Source: Dacryopinax spathularia (taxonomy: Eukaryota > Basidiomycota > Dacrymycetes > Dacrymycetales > Dacrymycetaceae). From it: DNA of 64,000 nt. Positions 59,510 to 61,884 of the stretch are shown piece after piece. The notes below the pieces were generated by a model that was given only the letters and a program-made list of their open reading frames with translations, searched no databases and was not told where the DNA came from. Each line of letters opens with the position of its first letter. The stretch's first letter is position 1. The stretch lies in assembly GCA_037974965.1 (NCBI GenBank), contig JBBPFI010000016.1:62001-126000 (forward strand), written 5' to 3'. Position numbers and translations under genes: made by a program.

Positions 59510-59884
59510 TTAGGTGGTGGAGCGGTATTGGAAAGAAGCCTTGGGGAGGGAGGGGGAATGGGGAACTGGAACTGGGGGTTATTCCTGGGTTTTATGTTTT
59601 GGAGGTTGTCGCAATTCAGCGCTTCTGATGCGCATTGGTCGTCGTCGGGCGAGATACTGTTGCGTAGGGGGAAGGCAAAGACTCTTGCACGCATTCCAAT
59701 CGGCCGTCGACTGTGTCCCATAGCTACAGTGTGCTGGGGCTCTCAGCAATCCTGGGAGAAAAGTCAATAAACAAGTTGAAGATGTGGGATAAGATACCAG
59801 GACATCTACAGCAGAAGTGAAGCGAAACGGCGACCTTGGTCGAGAATTGGTCGAACGGCAGACGCGAGTCAAGAGATATATGTC
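59510..59884. other. Intergenic region downstream of the P450 gene
   Basis: 3' UTR of the P450 gene and spacer before the tRNA-like cluster. No frame or RNA gene is supported. Confidence 0.5.
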
Positions 59885-60058
59885 TGCAGACAAAGCATCG
59901 ACGCCTGCTTGGCGCAGCGGTATTGGAATGGGGAAATGCAGCCCGTCCCCCGGGTGATTGCTGGTACCGTTACGCGAGGTTGTGTGTTCGACTCTCGTCG
60001 CGGGCAACTTCCGCGAATAAACCAGTTCGGCTGGTTTCACGTTTTGCACTTTTCTCGT
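59885..60058 (+). repeat. tRNA-like/double-hairpin element, copy 1
   Basis: The first 104 bases (59903-60006) resemble a tRNA gene. They have an A-box-like TTGGCGCAGCGG and a B-box GTTCGACTC. The 5' GCCTGC pairs with 3' GCGGGC, with a discriminator A. The middle does not fold into D and anticodon arms, and no anticodon can be assigned. Attached are two hairpins: CGCGG-N7-CCGCG (59999-60015) and AACCAG-N5-CTGGTT (60020-60036). Then come TCACGTTTTG and a T-run usable as a Pol III stop. The same 170-base unit lies inverted at 61724-61884. Confidence 0.8.
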
Positions 60059-60429
60059 TCGACTTTCCTTCATTCGTAATGCTTAAAATTGCTGCTTGTG
60101 TCGGATTTTGCAGCTCCAAGTCATCATGTATGATGTGAGAATGTTTGACGGGCAGATGGCGGCGAACTCGAAGCTGTTAGGCGGAAGAGAGGTGTTGTCG
60201 GAGGTAGATCAATGTGCATGGGTTTGCTGTTGATGAGGCTACATTCCAGTCTCATATCGTCCCGAGACAACATGAGACATTGTTATGATTCAGTCAGAAA
60301 CGGATGGGAATCACTTCTCTACTAGTATGAAGCTCCAGGCGAAGAGAGGCAAAACGTTGTTCGAGCGCCTGCTGGCCTAGATCTTAGCAGACCACTGCAT
60401 AAAAGGGTGTAGAAATGTGCTGCTGAAAG

Positions 60430-60646
60430 ACGACGCGTCAATCGAACTCGCAACCTCTCGCGCGAACAAGCTATAAGCGACGTAAAGGGCTGTATCTCGT
60501 CAGGGGAAGAATTCACCGCAGAAAGCAGTACCAACGCTCCGAATCGTTTGAGCAGAAAGGGCAGGAGCAAAAGTACAAAACGTGAAACCAGCCGGACTGG
60601 TTTTTTCGCGGAAGTCACCCGCGACGAGCTCGAACTGTTGTAGGCC
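60430..60646 (-). repeat. Double-hairpin element, copy 2 (degenerate tRNA-like part)
   Basis: On the minus strand 60646-60572 contains a B-box-like GTTCGAGCTC, then CGCGG-N7-CCGCG, AAAA, AACCAG-TCCGG-CTGGTT and TCACGTTTTG, in the same order and spacing as copy 1. The upstream A-box part is lost. Further along the strand (60480-60430) a second B-box-like piece, GCGAGAGGTTGCGAGTTCGA, resembles the 3' half of the tRNA-like region without hairpins. Confidence 0.75.
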
Positions 60647-61119
60647 GCCTTACGCATTCCTCATCAAAGCAGGGCCCTATACGGGCGCGCTAGATCCGCC
60701 GCGCTATCTACACACAGGAGATACTAGTATTGCTGTCAACCACTCTTGTACTATCCGGCCCCACTGCGCTCCTGCCCGTCCCATCTGGCTCGTCCTCCTT
60801 TCTTCCCCTCCGACAAGCTACACTCACATGGAGTGGACACTCCAGTCCTGAATACCCCAATTTCCGCATCCACATCACATCGCCATTCCTAAGCCTGCCG
60901 CCTATTCGACACCCTCCGCATGCCGGGCCAGCGTGACAGATAAGGGTGGAGCTAGCGGACGAGCGGCTTGACCGATACGACACTGAGCGAACGAATGCAT
61001 AGTAGCATGGAAAGGGGGCTAACGAGGTCTGAACATAGGCGCTCCAGGTACGACGCGTATAAGGACCCTTTAAAATGCGCACTTGTATCAACTGTGCGGT
61101 ACATGCGCGATCGGCTAAC
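60647..61119. other. Spacer inside the element cluster
   Basis: About 470 bases with no repeat or gene recognised. Short open frames exist on both strands and are not supported. Confidence 0.45.
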
Positions 61120-61220
61120 CCTCGAGGTTAATTGCGGTGTAAGACGGCGGACGGCAGTTTGATCAGCGTCGCGGTTCCATCCCGCGGACAAACCAGTTCG
61201 GCTGGTTTCACGTTTTGTAC
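61120..61220 (+). repeat. Double-hairpin element, copy 3
   Basis: CGCGG-TTCCATC-CCGCG (61170-61186), GACA, AACCAG-TTCGG-CTGGTT (61191-61207), then TCACGTTTTG. The module spacing is identical to the other copies although the loop and the upstream sequence differ. The sequence before it (GATCAGCGTCGCGGTTCCATCC) has only a weak B-box resemblance. Confidence 0.8.
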
Positions 61221-61284
61221 TTCTTTCGTTCCCCTCTGTCCCTATCTAATTTTCATAATATTTACTGCTCTTTTGCGTTCTAGA

Positions 61285-61368
61285 AAGGGTAAATGAGCGC
61301 GGAGCCGACTCCGCCCGGGCACCCCCGAGAGGGTGCGAGTTCGAATCCGCGCGTCGCCCACCTTTTTA
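61285..61368 (+). other. Degenerate tRNA-Ser-like sequence with type-II variable arm
   Basis: This stretch has a variable-arm hairpin CACCC-CCGAGA-GGGTG, a B-box GAGTTCGAATCC and a final TTTTT terminator. An upstream hairpin GCGGAG-CCGA-CTCCGC contains CGA, a serine anticodon. No A-box and no acceptor stem matching 3' GTCGCCC are present, and the T-stem pairs badly. I therefore read it as a tRNA fossil or an unrelated Pol III RNA, not a working tRNA gene. Confidence 0.4.
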
Positions 61369-61723
61369 AACCCATTTCACCATATTTAGACTCTCCACGG
61401 GCTTTCACACGTTGTTGTGACCCCCGATGTCTCTCATTTCTGCGATGCACATAACCTCTAATTGTTACAGGCTGGATCATAGTCGTGTCTCAAATTGTCT
61501 CGGATAATATGCACACAGGAATGCAGCCTTGTCAATAGCAGATTCATATACGTGAAATTACTCCCGAGAGGGCCTCTCTCCCGTTTACTACAGGCATCGT
61601 TCTCTGCCTCTATCTGTCATCAAACCGCTCTCGCAGGATATATGTTGATTTGGAGCAGCAAAATCCGCAAGCAAGCTGCAATTTGAAGCACAGACTTTGA
61701 GGGAGGAATGCTCAAGAAAAATG
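61369..61723. other. Spacer between the tRNA-Ser-like sequence and copy 4
   Basis: About 355 bases with no gene, repeat or RNA structure that I can support. Confidence 0.45.
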
Positions 61724-61884
61724 CAAAACGTGAAACCAGCCGAACTGGTTTATTCGCGGAAGTTGCCCGCGACGAGAGTCGAACACACAACCTCTCGCAT
61801 CGGTACCAGCAATCACCCGGGGGACGGGCTGCATTTCCCCATTCCAATACCGCTGCGCCAAGCAGGCGTCGATGGTTTGGCTGC
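61724..61884 (-). repeat. tRNA-like/double-hairpin element, copy 4 (inverted partner of copy 1)
   Basis: Reverse complement of copy 1 over about 160 bases, with only a few differences (ACCGATGCGAGAGG here, ACCGTTACGCGAGG in copy 1). The tRNA-like part is 61764-61867 and the second hairpin is 61734-61750. Upstream flanks are also shared (CTGCAG…CATCGAC), so the unit is longer than the tRNA-like part. Confidence 0.85.

Follow-up and report, generated by a model that had tools for sequence, protein, structure and literature searches.

The double-hairpin repeats of Dacryopinax spathularia, judged from their sequence, probably represent, though by no wide measure, a family of small non-coding RNA genes, about 130-150 nt long and expanded locally, that would be transcribed by RNA polymerase III (Pol III). 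In appearance the repeats are closer to a hitherto undescribed small-RNA family with working genes than to a mobile short interspersed element (SINE). At least 19 copies of its common 3′ module were found in the genome, and all of them were located in a region of about 120 kb, between 121.9 and 241.0 kb of contig JBBPFI010000016.1 (C16).

Genome and reference sequences

The analysed genome contained 29,246,034 bp in 24 contigs, with 827,634 bp in C16. The window, which is the whole stretch of 64,000 nucleotides that was analysed, corresponds to C16:62001-126000 (C16 coordinate = window coordinate + 62,000), and positions are given in window coordinates where C16 is not named. The left end of C16 was found to be capped by a CCCTAA telomere. 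Repeat counts in the genome are lower bounds. In the genome-wide tRNA search, tRNA genes were found to contain introns, and the closest solved structure to the IMPDH of the genome was 4af0, which we take to be a Cryptococcus neoformans structure. The reference set of own tRNAs contained 27 nuclear tRNA stretches, being 27 of the 54 matches listed, with those on C19 and C23 excluded; the nuclear tRNA number is at least 27, with 63 of 551 tRNA candidates scored. Among the matches listed, equal-score runs of tRNA matches were found in opposite order on C19 (21) and C23 (6), as for two copies of the mitochondrial sequence in the assembly.

Shared 3′ module and its distribution

The module was found to contain a 5-bp hairpin, four spacer nucleotides, a 6-bp hairpin and TCACGTTTTG, in that order. 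The four copies described in the initial annotation were present at 59,999-60,046 (+), 60,576-60,623 (-), 61,170-61,217 (+) and 61,724-61,771 (-), and the order and spacing claimed for them (CGCGG-N7-CCGCG, N4, AACCAG-N5-CTGGTT, TCACGTTTTG) were seen in all four, including copy 3, which retained both hairpins as described. The claim of fixed loop and spacer lengths was borne out in 19/19 copies, which aligned over 51 columns with no gap. The TTTT end described for all copies was likewise found throughout, as GTTTT in 19/19 copies followed by G in 18 copies and by A in one.

The tail pattern (up to 3 mismatches) gave 15 matches in the genome, 15/15 on C16 (reversed control, 0), and a looser scan of C16:62-280 kb added four tails, bringing the total to 19. 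The hairpin-1 pattern (up to 2 mismatches) gave 23 matches in the genome (reversed control, 2), namely the 19 modules and four sites on C1, C2, C9 and C12, none of which was among the genome-wide tail-pattern matches. DNA queries of 616 and 541 bases from two units had 22/22 and 23/23 matches on C16, and genome-wide core patterns for the gene classes A and B (up to 3 mismatches) had 9/9 and 5/5. In the window, hairpin 2 together with the tail (up to 3 mismatches) was found four times, compared with 0 in 100 shuffles. A 28-base exact pattern from the family had no match among viral contigs and a 27-base exact pattern had none among bacterial and archaeal genome contigs; in the part of the open-licence literature that was covered, no title was found describing this family.

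Arrangement of genes in units and quartets

The copies were found to be grouped in units (U1-U10) of about 0.8 kb each, in both orientations. In nine units, an A gene and a B or C gene converge on each other, their TTTTG ends being separated by 486-529 bp; U9 contained a B gene only, without an A partner. Between the genes, the units contained a box-B-like block on the strand of the B or C gene (M) and a doubled GAGACA motif, GAGACANNNTGAGACA. This central element had 11 matches in the genome (reversed control, 2), of which 10 were on C16, one per unit, and one was on C15; the tenth C16 copy, at 238,930, adjoins U9B.

In the window, U1 and U2 were found to make up a complete quartet of 2.0 kb (Q1, 59896..61874) with the arrangement A> <B C> <A. 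The class A gene of U1 (copy 1, 59896..60046, +) extends from the putative start CATCGAC to the TTTTG terminator and contains hairpin 1 (CGCGG-N7-CCGCG, 59999..60015, +) and hairpin 2 (AACCAG-N5-CTGGTT, 60020..60036, +). It is followed by the central element GAGACANNNTGAGACA (60264..60279, +), by M as the third box-B-like element (GGTTGCGAGTTCGATTG; 60428..60489, -, limits approximate; T-arm with 3/5 pairs; identity 0.86 in the best 25-base bin), and by the convergent class B gene (copy 2, 60576..60724, -), the transcript of which was 149/149 identical to U3B. In U2, a class C upstream element (GTATAAGGACCCTTTAAAA; 61057..61075, +), assigned from its pattern match and its spacing to TATC, precedes the class C gene (copy 3, 61086..61217, +), the head of which, on class and box scoring, has diverged and lacks a usable box A. 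This gene is followed by a tRNA-like M (61287..61367, +, limits approximate) containing box B AGTTCGAATCC (16.4 bits), then T5, and a T-arm with 1/5 pairs, by the central element, found as a pattern match (61486..61501, -), and by the class A gene (copy 4, 61724..61874, -), which is convergent with copy 3 and 148/151 identical to copy 1.

The same arrangement in the reversed order, A> <C B> <A, was found in U4+U5 (Q2, C16:195.4-206.5 kb) and U6+U7 (Q3, C16:222.8-228.1 kb), each of about 2.4 kb after subtraction of insertions. In Q2, the class C gene U4C was found to be split by a transposon-like insertion of 8,740 bp (C16:196163-204902) with inverted ends beginning CACCTATGCC and an 8-bp duplication, ATTAGCGA; two long ORFs within it matched nothing in Pfam at E up to 5, and the detached U4C head was located at C16:204,903-204,995. 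In Q3, a 2,899-bp hAT element between U6C and U7B (C16:224168-227066), with ends TAGGGATGGA and the 8-bp duplication CAGTCACG, encodes a hAT dimerisation domain. That two quartets were hit independently, each time with an 8-bp duplication, may be a hint of target preference. The units U3, U8, U9 and U10 were partial or rearranged, with U8 and U10 forming an inverted duplicate of 97% identity over 1,044 bp.

Head classes

The heads attached to the 19 tails fell into three classes, with 9 copies in A and 5 each in B and C. The heads of B and C were mutually related, as 0/1,000 shuffles reached either of two scores obtained with members from other units, whereas the A head was unrelated to them (scores reached by 889 and 412 of 1,000 shuffles). 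The 104-base tRNA-like head reported for copies 1 and 4 was confirmed and contains TGGCGCAGCGG as box A and TGTTCGACTCT as box B; copies 2 and 3 were also found to carry heads, of the classes B and C and thus unrelated to that of copies 1 and 4, with boxes weaker or absent.

The heads were rejected as tRNA genes: ARAGORN reported 0 tRNA in the window, no match to RF00005 was found and the T-arm was poorly paired. Rfam gave 0 matches at the gathering score in the window, and at six loci searched at E up to 5 it gave four low matches, none over threshold and none to RF00005. The T-arm contained 1-4/5 pairs in eight examples (two A, one B, one C and four M), compared with 5/5 in the 27 own tRNAs. 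Against 26 own tRNAs, class A scored highest against tRNA-Asn (47, compared with at most 44 in 60 shuffles); the scores of the U4 copy of A and of the B and C heads fell within the shuffle range, and three M copies scored 36.5-39, just above shuffles (33-36). An acceptor-like helix in class A was 76.8% paired, a value reached by 69/500 shuffles, and is suggestive only. Class A was also rejected as a coding exon; frame 0 of the consensus was open, but the changes were without codon-position pattern, with 9 synonymous and 30 non-synonymous changed codons and one change involving a stop.

Promoter-like boxes, upstream element and terminator

The box A and box B weight matrices were built from the same 27 own tRNA stretches that serve as the comparison. 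On this scale, box A of class A scored 9.0-13.5 bits in 8/9 copies (own-tRNA median 13.0) and box B scored 13.1-14.1 bits in 6/9 copies (own-tRNA median 14.3), with the two boxes 75 nt apart, a workable spacing, and a background frequency near 2e-5 for the best sites. Copies 1 and 4 were level with own tRNAs (box A 13.5 bits, box B 14.1), whereas box B was damaged in U5A, U8A and U10A (3/9) and box A was weak in U4A. The boxes of B and C were weak, with background frequencies of 1.6e-4 to 4.1e-4: the B genes contained a box A of 8.5 bits and a box B of 8.6-9.3 bits, and the C genes contained a box A of 9.7 bits in 3/5 copies and no usable box A in 2/5. The top box-B-like site in C and in two B copies was hairpin 1 itself, GGTTCTATCCC or GGTTCCATCCC (9.0-9.3 bits). 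A 19-bp stretch at window 59515-59533, which follows a P450-like ORF and precedes copy 1 by 381 bp, was found to be 17/19 identical to the class A box A region; its 13-base exact match was within chance.

The element GTACWAGGRCCCTTCWAAA was found just upstream of TATC, and upstream of 7/10 B/C genes (up to 2 mismatches), with one match elsewhere and two in the reversed control. The detached U4C head accounts for one of these seven, and U1B, U3B and U5B do not match the pattern. In own tRNAs, a run of at least four T was found within 18-22 nt downstream in 24/27, with 4 T the commonest length and TTTTG in 13. The small Pol III RNA family proposed in the initial annotation thus gains support at the level of sequence, from the tRNA-strength boxes of most class A copies, from the tRNA-like terminator run, and from the conserved A and B blocks, which extend from close to a plausible start as far as TTTTG.

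Conservation and exchange between units

In class A (36 pairs), transcript identity was 0.87-1.00, followed by 0.45-0.73 in the 128 bp downstream (1.00 for U8-U10) and 0.18-0.55 upstream. In class B (10 pairs), the transcript was 0.95-1.00 identical, the downstream sequence 0.55-0.91 and the upstream sequence 0.35-0.51; for example, U1-U5 had 147/149 in the transcript versus 80/130 downstream. In 25-base bins over 35 unit pairs, identity fell from 0.89-1.00 in the A transcript to 0.38-0.76 in spacer sequence other than M and to 0.19-0.37 upstream. Class C (10 pairs) was without excess conservation of the transcript. Among U6, U8 and U10, its transcripts were 0.94-1.00 and the downstream sequences 0.91-0.99 identical (U6-U8 and U6-U10 transcripts 0.94 versus 0.99 and 0.91 downstream), and pairs with U2C or the split U4C had 0.70-0.76 in the transcript and 0.58-0.96 downstream.

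Along the class A transcript, 26/151 columns were found to vary, and columns 31-74, between the boxes, formed a 44-nt run that was invariant in 9/9 copies; such a run was reached in 120/100,000 permutations, which ignore the relatedness of the copies. Variation was found in 4/11 columns of box A, 3/11 of box B, 0/44 of the core, 7/34 of the hairpins and none of the last ten columns. The invariant core points to a role of the RNA itself and not just to the binding of TFIIIC, and the hairpins are not specially conserved (7/34 columns versus 26/151 in the whole transcript).

Exchange between units was also found: U5A and U6A shared 232 bp at 96.6% beside different spacers, and the hairpin-1 loops of B were A-like in U1, U3 and U5 and matched those of C in U7 and U9. 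Given the U5A-U6A exchange, concerted evolution could produce part of the conservation pattern, and selection and conversion are not fully separable within the copies of a single species. The initial annotation had also named a local duplication of a dead tRNA gene, to be recognised by occurrence in this place only or by a lack of common ends. The family was indeed found in a single 120-kb region only, but sharp common ends exist; since these ends are accompanied by A and B transcripts conserved far better than their surroundings, such a duplication, though possible, fits poorly.

RNA structure and search for targets

The hairpin 1 stem was found to be identical in 19/19 copies and is uninformative on pairing because it never varies. 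Hairpin 2, compared over 11 distinct sequences, contained one pair changed on both sides (four copies, 2/11 distinct sequences), two wobble-keeping changes and one break. The number of paired cells and the covariation score were each reached by 4/500 shuffles, and the number of compensated pairs by 175/500. The sole break was found in U4C, the copy split by the 8.7-kb insertion; as a natural test of the structure it is suggestive, being a single case. Folding z-scores of the whole transcripts were unremarkable, ranging from -0.65 to -1.4 in A, from -0.18 to 0.31 in B and from -1.17 to 0.37 in C. The suggestion that RNA structure matters is therefore slightly supported: hairpin 2 pairing is kept in three of the four kinds of change, but no excess folding stability was found and the compensated-pair count is matched by 175/500 shuffles. 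Between one representative each of the A, B and C RNAs, no pairing beyond shuffles was found, and short exact matches of the RNAs to C16:62-280 kb, with units masked, were within the range of 40 shuffles; neither a target nor an effect of the RNAs emerged.

Surroundings of the cluster

Around the cluster, 80 ORFs of at least 220 codons were listed, and about 32 of them were scanned with Pfam, whole or in part. The matches included ordinary genes, namely those for RRM proteins, a xylose isomerase-like barrel, a SUN-domain protein, PAP2, Rit1, a PH-domain protein, a sulfate permease and a ketopantoate hydroxymethyltransferase. A pheromone-receptor mating locus was rejected, as the STE3 matches were all on C9, which contained two STE3 loci about 10 kb apart. 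No centromere marks were seen in the region as examined. Diverged duplicated blocks (about 65-83% identity) were found at C16:148-155 kb with 178-183 kb, at 172.0-175.0 kb and at 241.2-243.7 kb, and are probably gene duplicates.

Comparison with known systems

In the available portions of the cited reports, the milRNA loci of Neurospora crassa are described as Pol III-transcribed, with milR-4 located between tRNA-Ala genes and milR-1 without predicted boxes A and B (PMC3547838). They share with the present family the production of fungal small non-coding RNAs via Pol III, here predicted from the sequence, whereas the Dacryopinax heads are not tRNAs, the stems are 5-6 bp long and the genes occur in convergent pairs. 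The TMERs of murine gammaherpesvirus 68 were described, in the portion available, as containing a tRNA-like structure with hairpins processed into miRNAs (PMC8223928); like the TMERs, the predicted Pol III transcripts of the present family would each start with a tRNA-like part that contains boxes A and B and continue into hairpins, but the Dacryopinax family is without a cloverleaf and without precursor-sized hairpins, and the likeness is an analogy only.

Among mobile elements, AfuSINE2 of Aspergillus fumigatus is, in the portion of its report available, a tRNA-related SINE with target duplications of 4-14 bp (PMC5063351). It resembles the present family in being fungal, in its low copy number, in its Pol III promoter motifs and in its tRNA-unrelated region, and differs from the Dacryopinax units, in which no target duplication was found and which are duplicated as gene pairs. 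Helenus TRIMp3 was described, again in the available part, as containing two LTRs, a PBS and a PPT, with 5-bp duplications in fungi (PMC10886601); a tRNA-like sequence within the repeat and a known fungal occurrence are common to both, whereas the repeats within the Dacryopinax units are inverted rather than direct LTRs and no duplication was found. Extra-TFIIIC sites are defined, in the parts of the reports available, by TFIIIC binding without Pol III, and clusters of box-B sites occur at TFIIIC boundaries, those of S. pombe within an inverted repeat (PMC4502379, PMC6950938). The Dacryopinax cluster also contains box-B-like sites, known from sequence, but its conserved block spans the predicted transcript and terminator.

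Alternative explanations

A mobile origin, whether as the tRNA-derived SINE offered in the initial annotation, as a tRNA-carrying TRIM of the Helenus type or as a DNA transposon ended by these sequences, would account for the Pol III-type boxes, for the many copies in both orientations and for unit ends that border unrelated flanks, and is nevertheless very unlikely. No target-site duplications were found on the nine whole units (longest common word 4-8 within versus 4-9 between units), whereas the true insertions at the same place carry perfect 8-bp duplications. No dispersal was found in the genome-wide pattern and DNA searches, every copy found being on the single contig C16, and a SINE is unlikely because neither duplications nor dispersal were found. 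What repeats here is a convergent pair and not a single retroposed RNA, and the divergence between copies is uneven along the unit. Neither direct LTRs nor a terminal inverted repeat are present, as the paired genes are inverted and the A heads are unrelated to those of B and C. Non-functional local repeats, that is a degenerate tRNA-like cluster duplicated locally and homogenised by gene conversion, would suit the exchange visible between units (U5A-U6A and the B hairpin-1 loops), the damaged boxes of several copies, the class C genes without excess conservation and hairpins as variable as the rest of the transcript. We regard this as unlikely: the conservation of A and B falls at the terminator, yet similarity continues downstream at 45-73% in 35/36 A pairs and 55-91% in the 10 B pairs, and the 44-nt invariant run would be improbable if change were evenly spread (120/100,000).

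An equally doubtful explanation is a role of the DNA in cis, in which arrays of TFIIIC sites (extra-TFIIIC, boundary or chromosome-organising) would mark or insulate a 120-kb domain of the arm and the RNA would be a by-product. It is suited by the confinement to one region and by the presence of up to three box-B-like elements per unit, M among them, and M is conserved (0.86 in the best bin) though its T-arm contained 1-4/5 pairs in the four copies examined versus 5/5 in own tRNAs; both orientations and inverted pairs also recall the IR boundary of S. pombe, as described in the available part of PMC4502379. Against it, the class A boxes vary more (4/11 and 3/11) than the segment between them (0/44), and the conserved block reaches the hairpins and the terminator. 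TFIIIC needs neither hairpins nor a terminator. A small-RNA system specific to a chromosome domain, with convergent Pol III genes, a common 3′ double hairpin and a central protein-binding element, would be present in the one 120-kb region only because its RNAs or TFIIIC complexes act locally there, for example in silencing, pairing or insulation; this we consider quite improbable.

Proposed mode of action and significance

In the preferred reading, that of small-RNA genes of Pol III expanded locally, boxes A and B inside the gene would form a tRNA-type promoter with TFIIIC bound to the boxes, accompanied by the putative upstream element common to most B and C genes. Pol III would start near CATCGAC in A or TATC in B and C and would stop at GTTTTG. 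Each unit would contain two such facing genes, and four per quartet is probably the ancestral arrangement. The 3′ double hairpin would probably be the common stability or protein-binding end of the RNAs, whereas the specific function may lie in the invariant stretch that separates the boxes (44 nt in A).

To our knowledge, little work has been done on Pol III genes of fungi other than those for tRNA, 5S, U6 and a few single-copy RNAs. If the reading is true, the genome of D. spathularia would contain a multi-copy family of convergent small-RNA genes, with an invariant core and a common tail, in one chromosome region, unreported by ARAGORN and Rfam here. Such a family would be a test case for separating RNA function from the chromatin function of TFIIIC, and Q1, which alone of the three quartets is without insertions, would be the natural starting place.
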